Source: Rhodothermales bacterium (GTDB taxonomy: Bacteria > Bacteroidota > Rhodothermia > Rhodothermales > VXPQ01). Taken from it: a DNA stretch of 64,000 nucleotides. The notes under the pieces were generated by a model that saw only the letters and a list, made by a program, of their open reading frames with translations, was not told the DNA's origin and made no database searches. The position numbers and the translations under genes are program-made. Of this stretch, positions 42,616-58,860 are shown in pieces. How positions within the stretch are numbered: the stretch's first letter is position 1; each line of letters begins with the position of its first letter. The stretch lies in contig OX638293.1 of the NCBI GenBank assembly GCA_951812335.1, positions 1,224,731 to 1,288,730 on the forward strand. Reading direction: 5' to 3'.

Positions 42616-42855
42616 ATGCCTAAAAATCTGCAAGTTCGTAATCTTGACGAAGAGCTGGTCATTCGGCTGAAACGCCGTGCGGCGCGCCACGGGCGTTCGG
42701 CTGAAGCGGAGCATCGTGAAATTCTGCGTCAGGCGCTTTCGGCGGAAGTGGAACCTGCGTTTGACGAATTAGCGGCTCGGCTGCGATCCATGACACAGGG
42801 GCGCCCGCAGACCCCTTCAGAGGTGCTCCAGCGCGAAGGACGGGAGGAACGGTGA
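42616..42855 (+). CDS. FitA-like ribbon-helix-helix antitoxin
   Basis: A protein of 79 residues from ATG 42616. The N-terminal RHH motif is NLQVRNLDEELVIRLKRRAA, followed by GRSAEAEHREILRQAL, the typical FitA-type pattern. The C-terminus is expected to bind and block the toxin. The stop overlaps the toxin start (GTGA), and an AT-rich promoter lies upstream. Confidence 0.9.
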   Translation: MPKNLQVRNLDEELVIRLKRRAARHGRSAEAEHREILRQALSAEVEPAFDELAARLRSMTQGRPQTPSEVLQREGREER

Positions 42856-43292
42856 ATCGCTTTGTTATTGACGCAAGCATCGTTATCAAATGGGTTGTGC
42901 ATGAGGAAAATTCCCTAAATGCACTGGCCATTTTGCAAAATTTCCCTCTCTCATCTCCCGATCTTTTGATTGCCGAATGTTCGAATATTCTTTGGAAGAA
43001 GGTAAAACGCACGGAGCTTACTACCGATGAGGCGATCATGGCCGTGCACCTCATACAAAGAGCCGATGTCGAACTATTGCCCACGCGGCGCCTGATGGAG
43101 AGGGCCACGCGTCTTGCAATAGAGCTGGATCATGCTGCGTACGATTGTATCTATCTGGCGCTGGCCATCGAGAGAGATTGGCCTTTCGTTACGGCGGACG
43201 AGCGTTTCCGTCGCAAACTCGCTCAGGTTGCCGATACGCGCTTGAACCAGAGCGTTCTTTCGATGCAGGAAGCCCTGGCGATGCGGGCATAG
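42852..43292 (+). CDS. VapC-like PIN-domain toxin (RNase)
   Basis: A protein of 146 residues, starting at GTG 42852. The PIN fold has the acidic residues in FVIDASIVIKWV, LLIAECSNIL, DHAAYDCIYLALA and FVTADERF. These toxins cleave RNA and are held by the cognate antitoxin just upstream. It is slightly longer than the usual ~130 residues. Confidence 0.9.
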   Translation: MNRFVIDASIVIKWVVHEENSLNALAILQNFPLSSPDLLIAECSNILWKKVKRTELTTDEAIMAVHLIQRADVELLPTRRLMERATRLAIELDHAAYDCIYLALAIERDWPFVTADERFRRKLAQVADTRLNQSVLSMQEALAMRA

Positions 43293-44303: not shown

Positions 44304-46922
44304 TTAATTGTCTTGTTCGTCGCTTTCCGCCTGCTCTACGAACTGGTTGAGGCCGTCGATAATCACGGCCTGTTTATCCGCGTCTTCCAGCGTGCCCAGG
44401 TACCCGGACAGCAAGGCGAGCGCCTCTTCCGTGCCCGTAGCTGCGATGCGGCTTACGGTGAAGGGCAAGATACGGGGCAACTCGGCCGAGAGCGCCATGT
44501 CCATGGCCCGGGGCATGTCTGTCGGCGCCAGAGGCTCCAGGGCATACCATGCCATCAGCGGGATATTCCGGTCTCCGGCGTCTTCGGCCCGTTTCGTGAG
44601 CGCGTCCAGCGCATCCCATCGCCGATCGGGCGCCATGCGCTGGAGGGCGCTTGCGATGTAGAGCCGGACCAGGGCGGAAGCATCCTCCCCGGCCATTCGC
44701 GCGAACGCCTGCGCCGCCTCTTCGGGCACGTTCCGGTCTTCGACCAGAAGATGGATCGCCCATGCCCGGACGTGTTCGTTGTCGTGGTCGAGCAGGCCGG
44801 TCAGCGACTCGTCCGAAAGGCCGCCTGTTACATGCAGCGCCCAGAGTGCCCGCAGCTTCCGCGTATCGTCCGGATTTTCCTCGAACCGGGTCCATAGCGC
44901 TTCGTGCACGGCTTCGTCCGATCCCCGGTCCTGCAGGATGCGCCGCGCGGTGCGCACGTACCAGTCGTTCGGGTGCATCTGGAGTTCGGCCAGTTCCAGG
45001 GAAGAGAGCCGCTCCAGATCGACCGGCGTCCACTCGTCGTTTTCGTGCGAAATCCGGTAGATGCGCCCGGTCTCGTGGTCGTGGCTATCGGGGTTGCCGT
45101 GATGGCACTGGTTCTTGTCGTACCAGTCGATGACATGCACGGACCCGTCCGGGCCGTATACGAGGTCCAGCATCTGGGACCAACTGTCGTGAGTCAGCAG
45201 AAAATCCTCTCCGTGCCGCCCCACGTACCCGGAGCCGCTTCGTTCGAGAATGTCCGTGTTTGCCCGGAATCCGTGGATGTTGTGCATGAAAATGCGCCCG
45301 TGGTATGTTTCCGGCCACGAGCCGCCCTGGTAGATCATGGCGCCTGCATGGGCATGTCCGCCGCCCGCTGCACCGGACCGCCGGTTGCCCGCATGGGGTC
45401 CCAGATTGCCCACCCAGTGCACATGGTCGCCGATCGGGTCCAGATCGTCGTACACGTACGGATTGAAATGCGCGCCGGCCTGCCGGATCATACGGGCGCC
45501 GGGAATGACATGGTGCAAGTGCGGAATGACGCAGGCCGTCAGGAACAGTTGCCCGTGCGCATCCCAGTCCAGCCCCCAGGAATTGCTGGTGCCGTACGCA
45601 AACACTTCGAAGATGTGCTTCGTCGGGTGATACCGCCATACGCCCGCATTGAGTTTTTCGCGGTCGGCGTCTTCCGCCCCCGGCTTGCCCACGTTCGAGT
45701 GGGTGAATACGCCGTGCGTACCGTAGAGCCAGCCGTCCGGTCCCCACATGAAGGAATTCAGGGTCTCGTGCGTGTCGTGGTAGCCGAACCCGTCCAGTAG
45801 CACCTCCGGGGGACCTGCGGGCCGGTCTCCGGATGCGTCGACAGGGATGTAGAGCAAGTAGGGAGCCGCCCCGACCCATACCCCTCCGAATCCCAGTTCC
45901 AGGCCGCTCACCAGATTCAATCCTTCCATGAAGACTTTCCGCACATCGAACGTCCCGTCTCCGTCGGTGTCTTCAAAAATGAGAATCCGATCTTTGCCTT
46001 CGCCTTCCGGGGCCCGGACCGGATAGGTCCGCCCCTCGACAATCCACACGCGCCCCCGGTGGTCGAGCGCCATTGCAATCGGATTGACGACATCCGGTTC
46101 CGTCGCCGCCAGTTGCACCTGGAAACCGTCCGGCACGGTCATCGTTTGTGCGGCTTCCTGTGCGCTTCCTCCTTCCAGCAATACTTCGTCCCAGGCCGGT
46201 AGCCTCGCGATACCGGAAGGATCGAGTTCATCCGGGAAGGAAGGCCGCTCCGCATGAAAACGAAAGTGATCGAAGTTGATGTGCGCATACGCGTTCTCGG
46301 GGATATAGGCTGCCGTGGAGCCGCCGGTGTCCTCGTCCACAAGACGGATGAAGATCGTTTCGCCGACATGCTTCTCCAGATCGGCCACGACGGGACGCAG
46401 GGCAAGGTCGTTGTCGCCGCTCGTCGAAAAAATGACGGCCCCGTCTCCGGCCCGGACCAGTTCCGCCCGGGTGCTTTCCAGCGCACCCCCGGAAATCAGA
46501 AAACTCGCGTACGGATGCGTCACCTCGAAAGGGGAAGACGTCAGCGTACCTTGGCTCGCCGGTCCGTGCACCACGCCGGAACTAACCCAACGGGCGCCCT
46601 TATGCCCGCTGCGCAAGGTCGCCGGTTCCTGTCCGCGCCGTTCCCGCAGCGACTGGATCATTTCCGCGACAACCGCTTCGCCCGAGGCGAACAGGTCGCC
46701 CTCGACGGGTTCGTTTCCGAAGGCTTCGCCTTCGACCGTCCAGTCGGTCAGATCACCTACCTCAAAGTCGAAGTTCAGCGTGCCCCCGTCGGCTGCCGGC
46801 GCATGCCCGGCATCCTGTGCAGCCGCCGGTACAGAATCTATTGAGACGGCGAACAAGACGGCAGCGACGGCAAGGGCGCTGCAAATAAAACCAGGTCGGA
46901 GCAGGGACAGGGCGACAGGCAT
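44304..46922 (-). CDS. PVC-type membrane-bound dehydrogenase domain protein with HEAT repeats
   Basis: A protein of 872 residues from ATG 46922, which has an AGAGG site in front; a longer start at 46982 is possible. Signal peptide ends near PAAAQ. A glucose/sorbosone-dehydrogenase-like beta-propeller (VPDGFQVQLAATEPDVVNPI; NSFMWGPDGWLYGTHGVF) follows, then HEAT repeats at the C-terminus. No heme-binding CxxCH motif was seen, which differs from many family members. The last ~160 residues are homologous to the C-terminus of the 48208 gene. Confidence 0.82.
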   Translation of the reverse strand: MPVALSLLRPGFICSALAVAAVLFAVSIDSVPAAAQDAGHAPAADGGTLNFDFEVGDLTDWTVEGEAFGNEPVEGDLFASGEAVVAEMIQSLRERRGQEPATLRSGHKGARWVSSGVVHGPASQGTLTSSPFEVTHPYASFLISGGALESTRAELVRAGDGAVIFSTSGDNDLALRPVVADLEKHVGETIFIRLVDEDTGGSTAAYIPENAYAHINFDHFRFHAERPSFPDELDPSGIARLPAWDEVLLEGGSAQEAAQTMTVPDGFQVQLAATEPDVVNPIAMALDHRGRVWIVEGRTYPVRAPEGEGKDRILIFEDTDGDGTFDVRKVFMEGLNLVSGLELGFGGVWVGAAPYLLYIPVDASGDRPAGPPEVLLDGFGYHDTHETLNSFMWGPDGWLYGTHGVFTHSNVGKPGAEDADREKLNAGVWRYHPTKHIFEVFAYGTSNSWGLDWDAHGQLFLTACVIPHLHHVIPGARMIRQAGAHFNPYVYDDLDPIGDHVHWVGNLGPHAGNRRSGAAGGGHAHAGAMIYQGGSWPETYHGRIFMHNIHGFRANTDILERSGSGYVGRHGEDFLLTHDSWSQMLDLVYGPDGSVHVIDWYDKNQCHHGNPDSHDHETGRIYRISHENDEWTPVDLERLSSLELAELQMHPNDWYVRTARRILQDRGSDEAVHEALWTRFEENPDDTRKLRALWALHVTGGLSDESLTGLLDHDNEHVRAWAIHLLVEDRNVPEEAAQAFARMAGEDASALVRLYIASALQRMAPDRRWDALDALTKRAEDAGDRNIPLMAWYALEPLAPTDMPRAMDMALSAELPRILPFTVSRIAATGTEEALALLSGYLGTLEDADKQAVIIDGLNQFVEQAESDEQDN

Positions 46923-47004
46923 GGAAACCTCTTGTGGGTAATGTGATATACTGTAACAGGTATTTCTACGCCGGCGCTGCACATGCTCGCATCCGCCGGG
47001 CTGT

Positions 47005-48204
47005 TTACCGGATTTTCTGGCGAAATATATACGTGCCTTTCTTGTTTACGACCAGAATGTCCGGATACTCGTCGCCGTTCGCATCCTCCACCGCAAGCGC
47101 GACCCCGACCCCTGAATCGTCGTCGACGAGATGGGGGGTCCAGACAACCTCGCCGTTCTCCGTCCGCGTGAGCCGGAACCAGTAGAGCACAGGTGGGGCA
47201 TTCGGTTCGGGGTCCATGGCCTCGCCGTGCGCCCGGAATCGTTTTCCGGTCACGATATCCTTCAGTCCGTCCCGGTCCATGTCCACCAGCGCTACGGCAT
47301 GCAACTGGGAGAACCGGGCCCTGCCCGGCTCGTTCGCCGCATCTTCCCGAAGAATAATGTATTTCTCGAATCCGCCGCCCGGGAGCTGACGAAACCATGA
47401 AAGCCCCCAGCCGTGCGCGTCGCGGCTCGTGATCACGTCGTTCAGCCCGTCTCCGTCCACATCGTAGGCGTACATTTGCGCGCCGCCGAGGGCGAACGCT
47501 TCTTCATGGTGTTTCCAGGAAGTGTCCACATCGAATCCCGGGTTTTCCCACCATCCGTTCGACATGAGCAGGTCAGGCAACGCGTCGCCGTTCACATCTC
47601 CGACCCCGAACCCGTGCGTGAAGCGCAATAACTCCTCGTACGGACCGGCGACCTGCCGAAACGTCCACGGTTCGGTCGGACGCTCCGGATCGTACGAGGC
47701 ATAGCCCAGATATCCTTCCACATGGCAGACGATGTCCGGATGTCCGTTTCCGGTGATATCCAGAATGTGAGGCGACTCGTTATCCACGGTGGGGAAGGCG
47801 AGATGCCGCGTCCAGTACCCGATTTCCTCTGCATCCGGATCTCCGGGATTTTCGTACCAGAACGCCTCTTGTCCCGGAAATCCGATCACAAGAATGTCGT
47901 TCCGCCCGTCGTCGTTGAAATCGTGCACGTCGACGATGAAGTTGTCCGAATACGAAAAGCCCTTGATGCTGAACGGCTTGGGTTCGTAGAACGCATGACG
48001 CGCCTCGAACGAAGGACCGGCGTACCAGTACGGCCCCGCTACCAGGTCCGCCGCGCCGTCGCCGTTCAGGTCTCCGATAGCGCCTCCTTCTGCAAAAAAT
48101 ACATCGGTGAGATGTGTTTTGTCGAAGGCGGATTGTCCCGTTGCGGCGCCTGCCGAACAGAACAAGAGGCCTGCGCAGAAGGCCGCATACATTGTTTTAG
48201 TCAT
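47005..48204 (-). CDS. FG-GAP/VCBS repeat exported protein
   Basis: A protein of 399 residues with a signal peptide (GAATGQ). At least six calcium-binding-like loops (DLNGDGAAD, DFNDDGRND, DVNGDALPD, DVDGDGLND, DMDRDGLKD, DANGDEYPD) mark a seven-bladed beta propeller. It is probably extracytoplasmic and may bind a ligand or polysaccharide. It is 3 bp after the cupredoxin-HEAT gene and 82 bp before the dehydrogenase gene, all on the minus strand. Confidence 0.88.
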   Translation of the reverse strand: MTKTMYAAFCAGLLFCSAGAATGQSAFDKTHLTDVFFAEGGAIGDLNGDGAADLVAGPYWYAGPSFEARHAFYEPKPFSIKGFSYSDNFIVDVHDFNDDGRNDILVIGFPGQEAFWYENPGDPDAEEIGYWTRHLAFPTVDNESPHILDITGNGHPDIVCHVEGYLGYASYDPERPTEPWTFRQVAGPYEELLRFTHGFGVGDVNGDALPDLLMSNGWWENPGFDVDTSWKHHEEAFALGGAQMYAYDVDGDGLNDVITSRDAHGWGLSWFRQLPGGGFEKYIILREDAANEPGRARFSQLHAVALVDMDRDGLKDIVTGKRFRAHGEAMDPEPNAPPVLYWFRLTRTENGEVVWTPHLVDDDSGVGVALAVEDANGDEYPDILVVNKKGTYIFRQKIR

Positions 48205-48207
48205 AGG

Positions 48208-49284
48208 TCAGTCGGGTTTGACGATCCGGTTGATGCCGTACAGGATGGTTTTTCGTGCTTCGGCGTTCGCTTCGGGCAGATGCCCGGAAAGGACGCGAAG
48301 CGCTTCCTGCGATCCTTCCGCAGCGATACGTTCTACAGTAAAGGATAATACATTTGGCCATTCCGAAACCAGTGCCAGCACCAGCGCCCGATCCATATCC
48401 ACCGGCACGGCGGCCTCGGTGGCGTGCCAGATCAGTATCGCCAGCGCTGCAGCGTCTTCTGCATGGCTGTGCAGTCCTTCCAGTACATCCCAGCGGCGTT
48501 CTGGCGCGACTCGCCGCAACGTTTCTGCGAGATACATTCTCACCAGGGCGGAGGTATCCTCGCGGGCTATGCGCACAAAAGCGTTCAGGACATGCTCCGG
48601 GGCATTCCCGTCCTCGGCAAGCAGTTGGACGGCTCTTGCCCGGATGTGCTCGTTGCGGTGATCCAGAAAACCCGTCAGCTCTGTGTTTGTGAGGCTGTCG
48701 GTTGTCTGCAAATCTGCATGGAGCGGCAGTTCCAGCGCAGGAAGGGGAATATCTTCCGGAGGGGGCAGCTCGCTCAGGGAAGGCACGCGCGTTGTATTTC
48801 TGTCATCCCCATTCGCTTCCGGCGCAGGCCCGGCGGCAACCCCTGCTTCCCGTATAATTTTAAATCGTCCTTCCATGCCGGCGGCCCGGTGCCCCGGAAT
48901 CGTGCAGTAATAGATATCGTCTTCCACGGCGATAAACGTGAGGTCGGTCCGCTCGCCGATGTCCAGGATCTCCTTCGTTTTAATTAGCAATGTTTCGAGG
49001 GCCAGATCGTGAACCAGCGGCTCGATGTTCACAATGACGATACGCACGGTTTCGCCTTTCTCTGCCCGCAACACCGGATTGCGCACCCCGTCGATATCGC
49101 CGCCCACGCCCCAGTATCCGAGGATGTTGGTTTCAAGGACATATTCGCGGTCCGCATCCACAGCCTCCTGCGCGAGGACGGGGCGCAAGGCGAGGAGGAG
49201 TATTGCTATGAAACCCGGCAACAGGATGCAGATGCGGCGGCAAAGCATGATCCGAACAGCAAATGAATTTCGGCGATTATGCAT
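48208..49284 (-). CDS. Cupredoxin-HEAT-repeat fusion protein
   Basis: A protein of 358 residues with a signal peptide (RPVLAQ). The first half is a cupredoxin: an early His in PLVHDLAL and the C-x4-H-x4-M ligand set in CTIPGHRAAGM, as in type 1 copper proteins. A Pro-rich linker (PPPEDIPLPALEL) follows. The second half aligns along ~160 residues with the HEAT C-terminus of the PVC-type protein (LDHRNEHIRARAVQLLAEDG). It may shuttle electrons to the dehydrogenase; this is inference. Confidence 0.83.
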   Translation of the reverse strand: MHNRRNSFAVRIMLCRRICILLPGFIAILLLALRPVLAQEAVDADREYVLETNILGYWGVGGDIDGVRNPVLRAEKGETVRIVIVNIEPLVHDLALETLLIKTKEILDIGERTDLTFIAVEDDIYYCTIPGHRAAGMEGRFKIIREAGVAAGPAPEANGDDRNTTRVPSLSELPPPEDIPLPALELPLHADLQTTDSLTNTELTGFLDHRNEHIRARAVQLLAEDGNAPEHVLNAFVRIAREDTSALVRMYLAETLRRVAPERRWDVLEGLHSHAEDAAALAILIWHATEAAVPVDMDRALVLALVSEWPNVLSFTVERIAAEGSQEALRVLSGHLPEANAEARKTILYGINRIVKPD

Positions 49285-49750
49285 AGAGTCTACGGCGTCT
49301 GCTTTGGCCGGGCCGATTAGAAAATGCTCCGCCTATCCGGCATCCGCTTCCTGCAAGCGCATGCACCTCAATCAATATGGCCGAAGAGGCAAACCGCATC
49401 ACGGGATAATTTCACGAAGAATGTAAAATCTTCGCAAAGATGGTGGATACTCTGATTACGTCCGCGAGGTTCAGAGGCTGAGAGGGGTGTGCTGGCAAGG
49501 AAGGACGAAGCAAGGTGGCAGGCCCCACATAATGAGAAATGACGCAGCCAGCATATTTTTGGCAGCTTCCCGAACGGCGCTTCACGCACGCGATGCCTCG
49601 AATCCGCATCGTTTCCTGCTAATTCCGACGATGCAATTATGATACCCTTATAATACGCGCGAATGTGAAGTGCTGATCGAAGTGGATTTAATCAGAGTAT
49701 CCATATTATATTGCTTACTGAATTTACAATGCTCGTATCGCTTAAACATT
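49285..49750. other. 466-bp non-coding gap containing element copy A
   Basis: This divergent gap lies between the cupredoxin gene (minus) and the Gfo/Idh/MocA gene (plus). It contains the full repeat copy A (49445-49702), so promoters for both directions may be displaced or supplied by the repeat. No gene recognised. Confidence 0.6.
49445..49702 (+). repeat. Full copy (A) of a 258-bp dispersed element with terminal inverted repeats
   Basis: The left end reads GGATACTCTGATTA and the right end reads TAATCAGAGTATCC, a perfect 14-bp inverted repeat. The interior has CTGGCAAGGA and GCCAGC arms that can form a long hairpin. The interior has no protein-like frame. It lies 48 bp before the Gfo/Idh/MocA start. 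No clear target-site duplication is visible. Confidence 0.9.
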
Positions 49751-50860
49751 ATGCCTGACAAGATCAAAGTTGCGGTCGTCGGACTGGGTTTCGGCGCCGA
49801 GTTCATACCGATATATCAACGCCATCCCGACGCCGAACTGTGGGCGATTTGCAAGCGGGACGAAAAGGGTCTGCGCGAGATTGGAGATCAGTTCGGCGTA
49901 GAGCGCCGCTATACGGACCTGAAAGCGCTTCTTGCGGATCCGGAAGTGGACGCTATTCACATCAACACCCCGATTGCGTCCCATGCTCCAATGTCTCTGG
50001 CCGCCCTGGAAGCAGGCAAGCACACGGCTTGTACCGTGCCTATGGCGACCACCGTGGAAGAATGTCTCCGGATAGCGGAGGCTCGTCGCCGGAGCGGAAA
50101 GGTGTATATGATGATGGAAACGGCCATCTACACCCGAGAATTCCTGTATGCCCTCGAACTTCTCGAGTCGGGGCGTCTCGGGAAAATACAGTTTCTGCGC
50201 GGCTCGCATCAGCAGAACATGGGCCTGCCCGGATGGCCCGCCTACTGGTACGGATTTCCCCCTATGCACTACGCTACGCACGCGGTCAGCCCGTTGCTGT
50301 TGCTCGCCGGGGCGCGCGCCGAATCCGTCGTGTGTTTCGGCTCCGGGCGTATCCAGGACGATTATATCGAGCCCTACGGCTCCCCGTTTGCCGTCGAGTC
50401 CGCGCTGGTCTCGATGGTGGATTCGGACCTGGCCTGCGAAGTGACCCGGTCCCTTTTCAACACCATTCGGCAGTATCGGGAAAGCTTCGACGTATACGGC
50501 ACGGAAAGTTCGTTCGAGTGGGAACAGACGATCGGCGACGGGCCGGTCGTATACTCCGGCTACGAAGACGCCGAGCGCATCGAGGTACCCGACTACGCCC
50601 ACTTGCTTCCCGGCGAGATTGCGCGCTTTACCACCGGCGGCGTCTACGATGACGAGCACGAGCACACGTCGTTCATTCAGGGCGGCGGGCATGGCGGGTC
50701 GCACCCGCACATGATCCACGAATTTCTTCGGGCGATTCTGGAAGACCGCGAGTCGATCTCCGATGCGGCTCCTGCAGCCAACTGGACGATGACGGGCATT
50801 TGCGCCCACGAATCGGCCATGCAGGGAGGGCGGCGCATCGACATCCCCGAAATCCCCTGA
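49751..50860 (+). CDS. Gfo/Idh/MocA-family oxidoreductase
   Basis: A protein of 369 residues from ATG 49751. The NAD(P)-binding motif is VAVVGLGFGAEFIP, with INTPIASHAPMSLAALEAGK and the catalytic-domain ending near the HMIHEFLRAILED region. A canonical EKP lysine is replaced in the TACTVPMATT segment, which is unusual. It probably oxidises a sugar or inositol-like compound. An MFS transporter follows 31 bp later. Confidence 0.83.
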   Translation: MPDKIKVAVVGLGFGAEFIPIYQRHPDAELWAICKRDEKGLREIGDQFGVERRYTDLKALLADPEVDAIHINTPIASHAPMSLAALEAGKHTACTVPMATTVEECLRIAEARRRSGKVYMMMETAIYTREFLYALELLESGRLGKIQFLRGSHQQNMGLPGWPAYWYGFPPMHYATHAVSPLLLLAGARAESVVCFGSGRIQDDYIEPYGSPFAVESALVSMVDSDLACEVTRSLFNTIRQYRESFDVYGTESSFEWEQTIGDGPVVYSGYEDAERIEVPDYAHLLPGEIARFTTGGVYDDEHEHTSFIQGGGHGGSHPHMIHEFLRAILEDRESISDAAPAANWTMTGICAHESAMQGGRRIDIPEIP

Positions 50861-50891: not shown

Positions 50892-52271
50892 ATGGTCAAT
50901 AAAAACCGTCTTTTCGTAGGAAGCATCGTGGCGCTGGTCGCCACGTCTTTCGGCTTCGTTATCCGGGCAGGCCTTCTTTTCGAATGGGGCACAGAGTTCA
51001 ATCTGAGCGGTGTAGAGTTGGGATGGATTACCGGGGCCGGCGTCCTCGGCTTCCCTCTTACGATCATTCTGTTCAGTCTGATCATCGACAAGATCGGGTA
51101 CCATACGTCGATCCGCATCGCGTGTGCGGGGCATGTGCTCTCCGCGCTCGTAACGATATGCGCCGGGCATATAGGCGACCCGTTCTGGGTGCTCTACATC
51201 GGCACATTCATACTGGCGCTTGCAAACGGTATCGTGGAGGCTGTCATCAATCCGGCGGTAGCCACCTTGTACCCCAATTCCAAGACGCATCACCTGAATA
51301 TCCTGCATGCGGGGTGGCCGGGCGGCCTCGTGGCGGGCGGTATCCTGCTTATCGCGGTCGGCGACATCGGCTGGCGCTGGCAGGTGGCGTTCGTGATTCT
51401 GCCCACGCTGGTTTACGGCTGGATGCTGATTCGGGAGACCTGGCCGGTGCAGGAGCGCGTGGCCGCGGGCGTCGGGTACGGGGGTATGCTCAAGACCATG
51501 CTCCACCCCCTGTTTATCATCTTGCTCATCATCATGGTCCCCTTGGCCATTACAGAATTGGGGACGGACAGCTGGATTACGGCGCTGATGACCAGCGTCC
51601 TGAGTAACACTCCCGTGCATCCGCTGTGGGTCCTGGTGTACACCTCGGCCATTATGTTCGTGCTTCGGTTTTTCGCCGGGCCGATCGTTCACCGGATCAA
51701 TCCGCTGGGTCTCCTCGCATGCAGCGCCGGGATCGCCTGCATAGGGCTTGTTCTGCTTTCGCAGGCGGGGTCGGTACTTTGGTACGTATTCCTTGCCGCC
51801 ACCTGCTATGGTCTCGGCAAAACCTTCTTCTGGCCGACGACGCTGGGCGTGGTTTCCGAGCAGTTTCCTCAGGGCGGCGCCATGACGATCAACACGATTG
51901 CGGGCGTCGGCATGCTTGCGGCGGGTGCGCTTGGCGGTCCGATCATTGGCGCCATACAGGATAACTCCATTACGAACCAGGTACAGGAGCAGGTTGCAGA
52001 CCTCAGTGAACAGATACTTGGCGAGGAGCGTACCGCCCTGCTCGGGACCGTACCCTATCGTCCGCTTGACGACGATGCCGTAGCGATGCTGCCCGAGGAA
52101 GATCAGGAACGTGTCGTGGCTGTGCAATCGACAGCGAGCCAGTTGGCGTTGAAGACCGTGGCATGGCTTCCGGCCTTCATGTTCATATGCTACATACTCC
52201 TGATCCTGTACTTCCGGTCGAAGGGCGGGTACAAGGCCGTCGAACTGAAGGTGGAGGAAGAAACCGGCTGA
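50892..52271 (+). CDS. MFS transporter
   Basis: A protein of 459 residues with about 12 transmembrane helices. The first helices include ATSFGFVIRAGLLFEWG and the loop DKIGYHTSIRIACAGH resembles the MFS signature. A long cytoplasmic or periplasmic acidic loop (around residues 355-420) sits before the last helix. It likely imports the substrate of the adjacent oxidoreductase. Confidence 0.86.
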   Translation: MVNKNRLFVGSIVALVATSFGFVIRAGLLFEWGTEFNLSGVELGWITGAGVLGFPLTIILFSLIIDKIGYHTSIRIACAGHVLSALVTICAGHIGDPFWVLYIGTFILALANGIVEAVINPAVATLYPNSKTHHLNILHAGWPGGLVAGGILLIAVGDIGWRWQVAFVILPTLVYGWMLIRETWPVQERVAAGVGYGGMLKTMLHPLFIILLIIMVPLAITELGTDSWITALMTSVLSNTPVHPLWVLVYTSAIMFVLRFFAGPIVHRINPLGLLACSAGIACIGLVLLSQAGSVLWYVFLAATCYGLGKTFFWPTTLGVVSEQFPQGGAMTINTIAGVGMLAAGALGGPIIGAIQDNSITNQVQEQVADLSEQILGEERTALLGTVPYRPLDDDAVAMLPEEDQERVVAVQSTASQLALKTVAWLPAFMFICYILLILYFRSKGGYKAVELKVEEETG

Positions 52272-53489: not shown

Positions 53490-56400
53490 CTACCGCACGA
53501 CCGTGAACGTCCGCATGGCGGAGAAATCCTCGCCCCGGATGCGCAGGATATAGACGCCGCTAGCCAACGCTCCTCCGTCCACGACGAGCGTCTCGATCGT
53601 TTCGGACGCCACCGTGCCGTTCAGGATGCTGCGCACCTCGCGCCCAAGCATGTCGTATAGCGTGGCGCGGACATGTTGCGTGCTGCCGACGGTCAGGTGG
53701 GTGCGGGCCATGCCCTGCGTCGGGTTGGGGTACGCCGGCGACAGATCGAACGCCCGGCCGTATAACTCAGGAGGATCGGGTGGGCGTTCGACCGGGTGTA
53801 CGGCGAGGGTCCGCATCACCGTTCCCCAGTGCGCCGGGTCGCTGCCGAGGCCGGCAACGTTGGTCCGGTACAGCGCAGCTCCTCCGCCGTCCGCGCTCTC
53901 CGGCCATGGCGCCGTATCGGTCCAGGTTACCCGTTCTTCGAGTATTTCCGGAACGAATTCCGGGTCTTCCGCCGGGGGATCGTCCGGGCGGTTCAGTTCG
54001 AGGGTTTCTCCTTCGTTCGCAAGGCGGCCTTCCCAGCCCCCGATCAGCCGCCGTTCGTCGTCCCAGCCGTACGCGAGCCTAAGCGTGGCTTCGTTTTCGG
54101 TTTGAAGGGCCGGGTCGAAGGCCACCACGAACAGACTGTCCCCCGCTGCAAGCCGGAGTCCGTCCGGAAACGTGAAGTCTACGCCCCTCCGCAAGGTCCA
54201 CCCGGTCAGGTTTTCCGTGCCGTTGCCTGCGTTGTAGAGCGCAACGTATTCGAGATTCGGGTTGTTGCCCGGAGGGTGATACATAATCTCCCGGAACACG
54301 ACCTGCGCCGGTCTCGGTGCGCTGTTCGGGCCGCCAAGTGTGGGTTCCTGCAGGGGCACGAAGGCATCGATGCTTCCCGGGGGCAGGCCGATCGTTTCCC
54401 CGGTGCGCGTGGCGCCGAAGGCGACCTCGTCGGCGAACAGGGCGGGGTTCCCGTTCGCATCCGTGGCGGTCAGCCGCACTGCATCGCCGTATGCGCTGCT
54501 GAAGGCGAAGCCGTTTTCGGCGCCGGGGGCATTGAAATCGTTCTCGTCGAAGACAACGTATCCGCCGGCCTCGATGGTCGTCCCGTCGGGTATGCGGTAC
54601 TTGTCCAGCGGGGCGCCGTCGCTCAAAAGCCACCCGCCGATGTCGATCGACTGGCTTGTGGGGTTGTGCAGCTCGATGGCGTCCACCTCAGGGGGATCGC
54701 TGTGCGCAAGCAATTCGTTGACGATCACGTCGCGGAAGGAGGCGCGCGCCGGTGCGCCCGGCGATCCGCCGTATTCGATGCTTGCCCGCCACGCTCCGGC
54801 GCGGTCGCTATCTTCTGCGGCAGCGGGATCCAGCGTCAGCGAACTGCCGCTGCCATCGGCTCTTGCCGGCCAGGCGTCTCCGTCATTGTATTCGATGTGG
54901 ATCAGGCGTTCTCCGGCAGCGTTGCCGAGCGTCAGGGCCTCGCCGCCGTTGCTGAGCCTTCCCGAGGCGTAACTGCCGGCCACATCCGCTGCCGGTCCGT
55001 ACCGCATGCGGAAAGCGTTTTCGCTGGCGGCCACGACGATCCGAGCGCCCGGCGCAAGCATTTCATCCCCGAAGGCGAACGTAATCCCTTCGGTAAACGC
55101 CAGTCCGCCCAGCGCCACCGGCGCATTCGAGGGGTTGTGCAGTTCGATGAATTCGAAATCGTCGTTGTTGTCGAATCCCGCCGCGATTTCCGCGTCGGTG
55201 GGCTCCGTCGGATTGTAATGAATTTCCGCAACGACGAGTCGCGAAGAAACGGGGGAGGCTATCCCTGCAAAATATTCGGCTTCTTCCAGCGCCGACCATA
55301 TGCCTTCGTCCGAGCGGACACGCGCCAGTATCCGATTGTACCCGGATAGGGCTATCCCCATGGTGTCGTACGCCATGGCCGATGCGGAAACGTCCCCGCC
55401 GGGCATGCGGGGGTCGGCGCCGTCCAGCGTATAGAAAACGGTTCCGCCCGACGGCGTCTGCATGGTCAGCGTAAAAGAGTCGGACGATTCGCCTTCCTGG
55501 TGACTGAACACGGGCGCATCCGCGGCCGGATACAGGGGCGCGTCCACGAGGGCATCGCCCGGCCTTCCCGATGCATACCGGCGGGTTCGTTTGAGTTGTT
55601 CGAGGATAACGGGAGTTCGCGTGGAGAGGAACCCGTTTCGTACGGAAGTCACTTCCCGGAGCCAGTCGGTAGGTGTTAAGGGCGGCTCTCTTTTGGAGTC
55701 TCCCCACCGGGCCGATTCCGCAAGAATAATCGGGCGCACTTCGTCGGTCCGACTTGTCCACCGGGCCACGGCCTCCGGGCCGGTCAAGGTCCCGTTTCCG
55801 GACAGGTGGCGCTGCACAAGGTCCGCGAACCGGAGCCGGTATTCGTTCGATCCCATCAACTGCTGCTGCAGCCACTGCGGGTTGCTGAACTGGAACTGGT
55901 CTCCTCCAGGAAAGGGGCCGGTCCGGTTGTGACCGTCCCCGAATTGGGAAGTCGTAAAGAGTGAATGTTCGCTGTCATGCGCAAACCAGGTGAAGCCCCG
56001 CTCGCCGCCGCGCTCCCGGATGCCGAAGAAATTGTTGGTTCCGTTGAACGGCGTAATGGGCGAATCCGTGTTTCCGGTCCAGAAAATGACGAGCATGTAC
56101 TGGATCAGATTGTCCGCATCCAGCAGCACCGGGTAGTCGGGGTTGCGCGATCCGTCCGGGTTCAGCCCTTGCAGTTTCATGTAGAGCGCGTCGCGCTCCC
56201 CCTCCGTGGGCAAGGCGGCCAGCCGATTGGCTTCGTCGTAAAGCAGGCGCCAGTCGTCGAAGACCCCCGCCGTAACCTCCACCGTGTATCCGCCGTCCAG
56301 TCCGGCGGACTTGACGACGTCGTAGTCTTCCGGGTTGCCGCCGAGATACGAAGCGCCGTACCAGTGATCGGATCGTTCCTGGGTTTGGAAGAGTCCCCAG

Positions 56401-58436
56401 TACTGACCGTTCAGATACAAATGGTAATAGCGGCTTCGGGTGTAGGGGACGCCCATGTCGCGCTGCGTATCCCGGGAGAATACCTCCCGGACCATTGTGT
56501 TGGCCGAAGAACCGTTGAACGACCACGAATAATTCTGGGCGGTGCGCAGGTCGAACTTGTCGAATTCGTCCACGCCCTCGTCGCCGAAGAGCGCATAGGC
56601 AAGGATGCTCGGCCCGTATTCGCCCCGGAAGTACAGGCGAAAGGCATGCTTGGGATTCTCGTCGTTGCGGCTCCATCCCCCGCGGATGCGCACGCCCGCG
56701 TTGACCGCGAATCCGTCCCGCCCGCCGTGTCGGGCGCGCGGACCGGTCTCGGGCGGGAAGTCCGGGGGATAGATGAGTTCGATGGAGGCGGGGCGCTCCC
56801 AGTCCCGCCCGTAGTTGAGCGCGTTGGCGTATATCCCCCGTGCGCCGTCGAAGAGGGAGTCGAACGGGAGAACGATAGAGAAGGAGGGGGCGGCCGTCAG
56901 CGCCGCCATCACGTCGTCTTCCTGTCCCTCGACGACATCCGGGTCCATCCCCATATCCACGTCGTTGCCGCCCCAGTACGCAGGCCATCCCTTTGCCACC
57001 ATGTTCGCCCGCGATTGCCGGATCACGTCTTCCGGGAAGACATACGTGCGCGTCACGCTGGACGAGGGCTCGACACCTTCCATGAAGGCGGCGGCGCGCA
57101 CCACGGTCGTTTCGTCTATGTAGAGCGGTCCGGTCCAGGGCGTTCCGTTCTCTTCCGAGGGGTCCGAATGGTCCAGCGTATAGCGGACGATGCTGCCGGG
57201 CGTTTCGGGGAACAGGTACAGCGAGAACGGTTCGTCGAGAATAGCCCCCGCCGCGCTGAACGTGGGCGGCTCGAGGACATCGCTCATGCCCGGCACGTTG
57301 GGCCCGCCCGGCGTGGGCAGTTCGAACCAGGTATACCCTCCGTCGATCAGGCCGTAGGAAACGTCGGGGCGCTGCTCCGGGTATTCCGGCGCGAACTCGG
57401 ATGCGGGTTGCCCGGACGGGTCGATGAGCCCAAGGTATTCGCCGCCGCGGGAAAGGCGGAAGTTGGTATGAAACTCGGTCCGGGAAGCGAACGTGATTTC
57501 CGGGGCCGTCCCTCGGTACGCTGCCGGTTGCGCCTCCGTTTGCAGGGAAAGGAACGGGATGAGCGTAAGGTCCGAGGAGGTGGCGTTTGCATTATGCACC
57601 TCGACGGCCAGCACGTTCGCGCCTGCCCGCAGCAGGTCCTGCGGATTCGATATGGCGAACGGCTCCGGCTCGCCGCCCTGGTAGATCATTGCCTCGTGCA
57701 GGCCCGAAGCCGGGGTGTCGAAGGAGGGGACGCCCGGACTCATGAAACTGCGGGCGATTTCCTGCCCGTTCAGGTACGCCACGAACCCGTCGTCGTAATC
57801 CATGTGCAACACGGCCTGGAGTACGTCGTCCGGGTTGTCCACCGTAAACTCGATGCGCGCGTACAGGGAGAGCAGATTTTCAATATCCACCTCGGTCTGA
57901 ATATCCGCGCCCGCGCCGTCCCGTTCGTATCCGAGCGCACTGGCGCCCTGGTCCCATGCGCTTGCGTCGAACCCCGGCTCGTTCCAGGTAGCCGGGGGTT
58001 GTTCGGTACCCGGAAAATAGCGAAACAGGTCGCCGCGCCGCACCACACTGTTCCACACGCCTGCCCTTGGGCTCCGGTCCTTTCCGGAAGCGAACACGAC
58101 GAAGTATTCGCCGGCGCCCAGTGTTTTTTCCGAAAATATCCACTTGTCCGGCTCATCCTCGTTATCGGTGAGCGCCCATCCGCCGAGATCGATCGCCTGT
58201 CCGGTCGGGTTATGCAGTTCGATCCAGTCCGAAGCGTCGCCGTCCTCGTCGTACAGCGTGGTCGAGTTCGACGCCATGAATTCGTTCACGACCGGCGCCG
58301 CATCCTGCGCAGCAGCGGTTCCGAAAACGAGCGCGAGCAGCGCGATCAGCGCCGGGAATGCCGTCCGGAGGAACTGTCCGATGAAGGACCATGGGGGTGA
58401 GTTTCTGGCAGATCTCAACAAATGGATTGCGTTCAC
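53490..58436 (-). CDS. CotH kinase/lamin-tail/T9SS protein, copy 1
   Basis: A protein of 1,648 residues; start GTG 58436, matched to the ATG of copy 2. Order: signal peptide (TAAAQ), lamin-tail domain 1 (~48-125), a Fn3_assoc/chitobiase-C-like segment (~400-470), a CotH kinase-like domain (~535-900), a second chitobiase-C-like segment, three more lamin-tail domains and a C-terminal T9SS sorting domain (LSPAYPNPTQGMARTHLTVG). CotH kinases phosphorylate surface proteins. A lysine in NPKHAFRLYF and an acidic pair in AHDSEHSLF fit the kinase. It is probably secreted through T9SS. Confidence 0.88.
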   Translation of the reverse strand: MNAIHLLRSARNSPPWSFIGQFLRTAFPALIALLALVFGTAAAQDAAPVVNEFMASNSTTLYDEDGDASDWIELHNPTGQAIDLGGWALTDNEDEPDKWIFSEKTLGAGEYFVVFASGKDRSPRAGVWNSVVRRGDLFRYFPGTEQPPATWNEPGFDASAWDQGASALGYERDGAGADIQTEVDIENLLSLYARIEFTVDNPDDVLQAVLHMDYDDGFVAYLNGQEIARSFMSPGVPSFDTPASGLHEAMIYQGGEPEPFAISNPQDLLRAGANVLAVEVHNANATSSDLTLIPFLSLQTEAQPAAYRGTAPEITFASRTEFHTNFRLSRGGEYLGLIDPSGQPASEFAPEYPEQRPDVSYGLIDGGYTWFELPTPGGPNVPGMSDVLEPPTFSAAGAILDEPFSLYLFPETPGSIVRYTLDHSDPSEENGTPWTGPLYIDETTVVRAAAFMEGVEPSSSVTRTYVFPEDVIRQSRANMVAKGWPAYWGGNDVDMGMDPDVVEGQEDDVMAALTAAPSFSIVLPFDSLFDGARGIYANALNYGRDWERPASIELIYPPDFPPETGPRARHGGRDGFAVNAGVRIRGGWSRNDENPKHAFRLYFRGEYGPSILAYALFGDEGVDEFDKFDLRTAQNYSWSFNGSSANTMVREVFSRDTQRDMGVPYTRSRYYHLYLNGQYWGLFQTQERSDHWYGASYLGGNPEDYDVVKSAGLDGGYTVEVTAGVFDDWRLLYDEANRLAALPTEGERDALYMKLQGLNPDGSRNPDYPVLLDADNLIQYMLVIFWTGNTDSPITPFNGTNNFFGIRERGGERGFTWFAHDSEHSLFTTSQFGDGHNRTGPFPGGDQFQFSNPQWLQQQLMGSNEYRLRFADLVQRHLSGNGTLTGPEAVARWTSRTDEVRPIILAESARWGDSKREPPLTPTDWLREVTSVRNGFLSTRTPVILEQLKRTRRYASGRPGDALVDAPLYPAADAPVFSHQEGESSDSFTLTMQTPSGGTVFYTLDGADPRMPGGDVSASAMAYDTMGIALSGYNRILARVRSDEGIWSALEEAEYFAGIASPVSSRLVVAEIHYNPTEPTDAEIAAGFDNNDDFEFIELHNPSNAPVALGGLAFTEGITFAFGDEMLAPGARIVVAASENAFRMRYGPAADVAGSYASGRLSNGGEALTLGNAAGERLIHIEYNDGDAWPARADGSGSSLTLDPAAAEDSDRAGAWRASIEYGGSPGAPARASFRDVIVNELLAHSDPPEVDAIELHNPTSQSIDIGGWLLSDGAPLDKYRIPDGTTIEAGGYVVFDENDFNAPGAENGFAFSSAYGDAVRLTATDANGNPALFADEVAFGATRTGETIGLPPGSIDAFVPLQEPTLGGPNSAPRPAQVVFREIMYHPPGNNPNLEYVALYNAGNGTENLTGWTLRRGVDFTFPDGLRLAAGDSLFVVAFDPALQTENEATLRLAYGWDDERRLIGGWEGRLANEGETLELNRPDDPPAEDPEFVPEILEERVTWTDTAPWPESADGGGAALYRTNVAGLGSDPAHWGTVMRTLAVHPVERPPDPPELYGRAFDLSPAYPNPTQGMARTHLTVGSTQHVRATLYDMLGREVRSILNGTVASETIETLVVDGGALASGVYILRIRGEDFSAMRTFTVVR

Positions 58437-58860
58437 CGTATAATTCCAGGGGGTATTTGTACAATATATTAAGGATACTCTGATCAAAACCGCTTCGCCC
58501 AGCGCTTCACGTTTGCAAGTGCAGGACGTCATGATTCCATCGTTGAAATCAGCGGGAAACACTGCGGATTCGGAGCGTCGCGGGTGTGAAGCGCCCTTCG
58601 GGAGGCTGCGAGGGATACGCTGGCCGCGTCATTTCTCATTATGTAGGGGGTAGGCCGCACTGCTTCGTTATTCCTTGCCAGCGCACCCCTCGCAGCCTCT
58701 GAGCTTTGCGGACTTAATCAGAGTATCCTAAACAGGAATCCGCCCGTCCGGCAGGATGAGGGTGCTATCGGCGATTTCCTGAGAGTGAGGGATTGTGCAG
58801 AGGGGTTTCGTTCCGTGTTTCGATGTGCATCGGTTCGAACACGGGGATCGCATTGCCCTT
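58437..58860. other. 424-bp gap between the two CotH copies with element copy C
   Basis: This gap holds the promoter region of copy 1 (minus strand) and the full element copy C (58473-58728). Bases 58437-58470 match the sequence before copy 2 (GGGGGTATTTGT), showing that the upstream region was duplicated and then interrupted by the element in copy 1. The rest holds no gene. Confidence 0.65.
58473..58728 (-). repeat. Full copy (C) of the dispersed element
   Basis: 256 bp. Ends are GGATACTCTGATCA and TTAATCAGAGTATCC, with TAA directly repeated on both sides (target-site duplication candidate). Interior arms CGCTGGC and GCCAGCG remain paired although the loop has diverged. It ends 36 bp before the GTG start of CotH copy 1. 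Confidence 0.9.

Follow-up and report, generated by a model that had tools for sequence, protein, structure and literature searches.

Two neighbouring genes in the window, the 64,000-nucleotide stretch of DNA from a Rhodothermales bacterium analysed here, appear to derive from one enzyme that was split by duplication and reciprocal domain loss, and whose propeller passes electrons to a cupredoxin; we give this reading a probability of about 0.65. One gene (48208-49284, minus strand) is the split-off half that kept the copper carrier, and codes for a 358-residue protein combining a cupredoxin with a HEAT region. Its complementary half (44304-46922, minus strand) codes for an N-module, a TIGR02604/DUF7133 propeller and a second HEAT region. 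That their ancestor was a single secreted protein with the architecture cupredoxin - N-module - TIGR02604 propeller - HEAT, with an FG-GAP gene after it, is strongly supported. More than 100 other genomes from the Bacteroidota side encode a single protein of 905-1044 amino acids that has the same cupredoxin as its N-terminal domain. Proteins with a TIGR02604 propeller occur widely and have hardly been characterised, and the cupredoxin branch provides a concrete, testable candidate redox partner for the family.

Architecture of the two genes and their neighbours

The cupredoxin-HEAT protein consists of a predicted signal peptide (residues 1-39, 49168-49284, read from the sequence, ending ...VLAQ before EA), a type-1 cupredoxin domain (residues 46-144, 48853-49149), a proline-rich linker and a HEAT region, all on the minus strand. 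The cupredoxin is recognized both by its PDB matches and by the conservation of the ligands H92 (49009-49011), C127 (48904-48906), H132 (48889-48891) and M137 (48874-48876), the last three spaced as C-x4-H-x4-M. All four are invariant in 29 sequences, namely the five genus homologues and 24 fused relatives. The nearest solved structures are the N-terminal cupredoxin domains of the Hyphomicrobium copper nitrite reductases (2dv6, E=3e-15; 3e-27 with a profile), while the two-domain T1Cu-T2Cu core of copper nitrite reductases gave no match. The Pfam Copper-bind model scores 18 bits on the window protein, under its cut-off of 21.2, which the fused relatives exceed. Judged from its sequence, the product is a secreted cupredoxin with a His-Cys-His-Met site of the type-1 class, predicted to function in copper binding and electron transfer. 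Within the linker, residues 166-192 (RVPSLSELPPPEDIPLPALELPLHADL; 48709-48789) comprise a segment discussed below as a scar. The HEAT region (copy 1, residues 199-356, 48217-48690) lacks the first ~65 residues of an intact HEAT region, and residues 192-356 align with the C-terminus of the propeller protein at 50% identity (E=3.6e-45), far beyond chance. The earlier note had pointed to the type 1 ligand set, to ~160 residues homologous to the C-terminus of a dehydrogenase encoded 1.3 kb away and to an FG-GAP gene in between, and each of these agrees with the ligands, alignment and coordinates given here.

The FG-GAP repeat protein gene (47005-48204, minus strand) starts 3 bases past the stop of the cupredoxin gene and fills the ~1.3 kb up to the propeller gene, whose start we set at the ATG at 46922 in a frame open from a GTG at 46982. 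The N-module (46242-46778) is an unnamed domain that found no match in a Pfam search and no relative in a PDB profile search. It contains an 18-residue insertion (AVVAEMIQSLRERRGQEP; 46623-46676), which occurs only in the split form (5/5 genus sequences, 0/24 fused proteins), is probably helical and may be a docking place for the now-free partner. The TIGR02604 (Piru_Ver_Nterm)/DUF7133 propeller (45039-46142, minus strand; 363.3 bits against a cut-off of 122.2) likewise found no relative in a PDB profile search, and is followed by a full-length HEAT region (copy 2, 44334-45020). The protein has no cupredoxin, and the CxxCH motif is absent from it as from every other cupredoxin-branch protein checked; hence, we place it in the propeller family only, and not as a heme-binding protein. 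AlphaFold models from two-sequence alignments reached a mean pLDDT of 51 for the cupredoxin-HEAT protein and 42 for the propeller-HEAT protein, with the HEAT parts alone being usable.

On the plus strand, in a divergent group conserved in the genus, lie genes for a Gfo/Idh/MocA oxidoreductase (49670-50860), an MFS transporter (50892-52271) and a 3-keto-disaccharide hydrolase (PF06439; 52646-53446). Of 15 loci of family f48, 9 have a homologue of the hydrolase gene immediately upstream of the fused gene. A fusion of the FG-GAP protein to a 3-keto-disaccharide hydrolase domain occurs in families f2 and f5 (L050:12236-14323, L053:1453-3489, L054:4032-5978); the window's genus has them as separate genes ~4.4 kb apart, which is a second fusion/fission difference within the same gene cluster.

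Fused relatives and the split genus

When other genomes were searched with the cupredoxin-HEAT protein, its cupredoxin and HEAT matches in other families fell within one open frame of about 950-1000 amino acids. A search with the cupredoxin profile recovered open frames of 905-1044 amino acids in 101 genomes (92 from family f48, 6 from the same order, 3 from the same class), with more fused frames in families f38, f39 and f62. Domain-by-domain mapping covered 24 complete genes, in all of which the architecture is uniform; the remaining fused frames were judged on frame length alone. Shorter frames mostly stop at contig ends (G604, G666, G223, G051), one carries a frameshift (G542) and one is of 780 amino acids (G755, length only). 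The two-ORF gene of G542 (L128:8097-11017) is not a second split, as the frameshift falls in the propeller and all domains are in order; it could be a sequencing error or a young pseudogene.

The fused form is found in at least eight families over several classes, with the split form confined to one genus. Here the two-gene form is seen in 5/5 readable genomes (the window's own, G000, and G001-G004), a sixth (G005) being left out of the count because its locus is broken by a contig end. The order is always cupredoxin-HEAT, FG-GAP and N-module-propeller-HEAT, so that the synteny to which the earlier note had tied its proposal holds in all five. The window's genome yielded no remaining fused copy. 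The two genes are complementary, one with the cupredoxin and HEAT, the other with the N-module, propeller and HEAT, the HEAT region being common to both. Of the 18 loci from families f18 and f48, 13 have the FG-GAP gene immediately downstream of the fused gene, which supports its suggested role as a conserved third component of the system. The earlier note had also proposed a search for the same fusion in other genomes: cupredoxin-HEAT proteins do recur in the genus, and only there, whereas elsewhere these two domains are the ends of the four-domain protein.

With the undivided gene present in outgroups and the halves complementary, the situation fits a gene fission. It resembles the fission of the Drosophila monkey-king genes through duplication and degeneration, as cited in PMC3395120, where complementary loss likewise left two genes for one; relative to the case described there, the present one is bacterial, and involves the loss of whole domains, an internal linker scar and the retention of HEAT in both halves.

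The linker scar and the probable origin of the split

The clue to the origin of the cupredoxin-HEAT gene is a segment of its linker, RVPSLSELPPPEDIPLPALEL (LRAPLPSELPPLEDIALPPLDL in other species), which aligns with ERPTFVNELHPDDVVILPPIDP, the linker that joins the N-module to the propeller in the fused proteins. When the five split linkers were compared as a profile with the 24 fused proteins, this block scored 36.4 against a mean of 17.9 for shuffled columns (z 5.2), a score that none of 1000 column shuffles reached. It was also the top among 60 blocks from the N-module, propeller and HEAT regions, the next unrelated block scoring 18.9. Shuffles of single sequences gave mixed results: out of 600, the score was reached by 0-2 in the case of two sequences, by 11-19 for another two and by 187 for the remaining one. 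The retention of this scar indicates that the cupredoxin-HEAT gene is a copy of the four-domain gene with its middle deleted, rather than a cupredoxin with a HEAT domain pasted on; further, its position between cupredoxin and HEAT, which keeps to the order of the four-domain gene, implies at least two internal deletions. In a phylogenetic tree of the HEAT region the two genus copies are sisters (support 88/67) inside a clade of fused proteins (95/91). The grouping of the two domains expected by the earlier note is therefore recovered, although AU tests leave alternative placements standing (p 0.19-0.30, not rejected).

The presence of the fused form in many families, the restriction of the split form to one genus and the position of the FG-GAP gene all fit a tandem duplication of the fused gene together with the FG-GAP gene, followed by reciprocal loss. 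In this proposed sequence of events, the block would have been duplicated in tandem in the ancestor of the genus. From the upstream copy the N-module would then have disappeared and, in a separate step, the propeller together with the first part of HEAT, so that the linker that had joined the two remained as a scar; the copy on the far side of the FG-GAP gene would have lost its cupredoxin. As a result, a tethered electron carrier would have become a separate, diffusible subunit. If so, the scar records reciprocal loss of whole domains after duplication in bacteria.

Three other histories of these genes were weighed against such a split. The earlier note had proposed that a free cupredoxin gene gained a copy of its neighbour's HEAT domain, as a docking surface shared by the two proteins. 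The 50% identity and grouping of the HEAT domains, and the conservation of gene order and neighbours in the genus, are compatible with this; however, the cupredoxin is itself a homologue of the domain at the N-terminus of the fused enzyme, and the persistence of a linker from deep inside that enzyme strongly disfavours copying, which we regard as very improbable. The idea of a shared docking surface fares no better. Comparisons among the genus sequences gave dN/dS values of 0.05-0.15 in the propeller and 0.11-0.17 in the cupredoxin; HEAT copy 1 had 0.18-0.50, and the corresponding stretch of HEAT copy 2 had 0.14-0.24, so that copy 1 is under constraint, but weaker than that on copy 2. Moreover, of the positions conserved in the fused HEAT regions 71% are retained in copy 1 and 85% in copy 2, and the changes W217R, S254E and M284L in copy 1 are fixed in 5/5 genomes. 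The faster evolution of copy 1 and its loss of residues conserved in the other copies argue against a preserved docking surface, though it may yet have some other binding role. Even less plausible is a history that begins with two genes and derives the one-gene proteins from them by fusion. A single deletion reaching from where the cupredoxin ends to where the N-module begins would yield the fused order directly, and the propeller tree leaves the root of the cupredoxin branch without resolution. Against this stand the distribution of the two forms, the need for the FG-GAP gene to be lost from between the genes and regained downstream, and the scar, which only deletion explains. The chance that the cupredoxin-HEAT gene is a decaying, functionless fragment of a duplicate, for which the loss of half its domains and the relaxed HEAT part might speak, is comparably slight: the gene is open in 5/5 genomes, retains its signal peptide and all copper ligands, and complements a gene that has no cupredoxin. 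Furthermore, the low dN/dS of the cupredoxin shows that it is maintained under strong purifying selection.

Proposed function and relationship to known systems

Under the preferred reading of a split redox enzyme, the propeller would work in the periplasm, oxidizing a sugar or glycoside; the type-1 copper site would take up the electrons singly and hand them towards the respiratory chain, a role presumably filled in the commoner members of the family by a C-terminal cytochrome c domain. That the copper site takes electrons from the propeller is suggested by domain architecture. More than 100 relatives have the carrier built covalently into the enzyme, which makes it very probable that the cupredoxin partners the dehydrogenase-like protein, as the earlier note had supposed, with electron transfer as the likely basis of the partnership. 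Cytochrome c takes the place of the cupredoxin in the other branch of the family (CxxCH in 6/6 checked). Tethering alone, however, is no proof of transfer, because the N-tethered cupredoxin of the Hyphomicrobium nitrite reductase is too distant from the enzyme core for efficient transfer (PMC7201279).

Two readings in which the cupredoxin is not an electron carrier for the propeller are both unlikely, if less so than the alternative histories above. In one, its task is to supply the propeller protein with copper, or to store or sense the metal for it. The many invariant histidines of the propeller could bind metal, and no PQQ synthesis gene was found (pqqE had no match above the cut-off in the window's genome or in relatives); but His-Cys-His-Met is a ligand set of the electron-transfer kind, and in the other branch a cytochrome c stands in for the cupredoxin. 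In the other, the propeller is a hydrolase or lyase, with the cupredoxin in an unrelated or regulatory role. Here the evidence comes from Lac161_ORF7, a TIGR02604-HEAT-cytochrome protein reported to hydrolyse lactose (PMC5342196), a reaction requiring no electron carrier, and the report therefore counts against a redox function. Nevertheless, heme or copper redox domains are attached to the propeller in both branches examined, and the apparent hydrolysis could be explained by a 3-keto mechanism. One PF06439 protein is BT2157, a 3-ketotrehalose hydrolase, and in the use of lactose proteins of this family work alongside a dehydrogenase (PMC9007349). Placed beside a hydrolase of this family, a Gfo/Idh/MocA oxidoreductase and a transporter, the proposed split redox enzyme has a genomic context that suggests a 3-keto-glycoside pathway as its likeliest setting.

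Comparison with known systems places the window proteins apart from each. The TIGR02604/TIGR02603 'PVC-type heme-binding CxxCH proteins' (Piru_Ver_Nterm, HEAT and cytochrome c), such as Lac161_ORF7 (PMC5342196), share the propeller, HEAT repeats and secretion, but the window's branch has a different N-terminal module and lacks the CxxCH heme domain, whose place is taken in the relatives by a cupredoxin at the N-terminus and in the window by a separate cupredoxin. The Hyphomicrobium denitrificans copper nitrite reductase (2dv6, 6tfd/6tfo; PMC7201279) shares the cupredoxin family, the four ligands and the N-terminal tether, whereas the catalytic part of the fused relatives is the TIGR02604 propeller rather than a T1Cu-T2Cu core, and the window's cupredoxin is on its own polypeptide. 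The LacABC dehydrogenase of the 3-keto-glycoside pathway, found with DUF1080 (PMC9007349), is a redox enzyme of the periplasm whose gene also neighbours one for a 3-keto-disaccharide hydrolase, but is unrelated to the propeller enzyme. The open-access literature yielded no description of the cupredoxin branch and no biochemistry for it; among 5.4 million open papers, a single one used the TIGR02604 name and none dealt with DUF7133.

The genus to which this marine bacterium belongs offers a natural experiment on the effect of the tether in electron transfer, a question raised by the tethered nitrite reductases (PMC7201279). More tentatively, and with the balance somewhat against it, the carrier might now be free and adjustable in stoichiometry, with the 18-residue insertion, perhaps together with the second HEAT copy, as a new element for docking in trans. 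If true, this would provide a natural tethered-versus-free pair and the first TIGR02604 branch with a redox assignment.

Several further observations concern the same genome. It codes for a second TIGR02604 protein of 1348 amino acids, with DUF6807, a propeller, HEAT and a C-terminal CSACH cytochrome (L040:1276-5319 = G000:C1:417275-421318). A radical SAM/SPASM protein conserved in the genus (G000:C1:280339-281334) scores 135 bits on the PqqE model against a cut-off of 381, and is probably a different peptide-modifying enzyme. The window also encodes a secreted protein of 1690 amino acids (53490-58562), and the matching site in L041 and L043 holds shorter proteins with lamin-tail, CotH kinase and Por-type sorting domains. 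Finally, an ORF at 42852-43292 (MNRFVIDASIVIKWV...) resembles, as judged by eye, a PIN-domain (VapC-like) protein.
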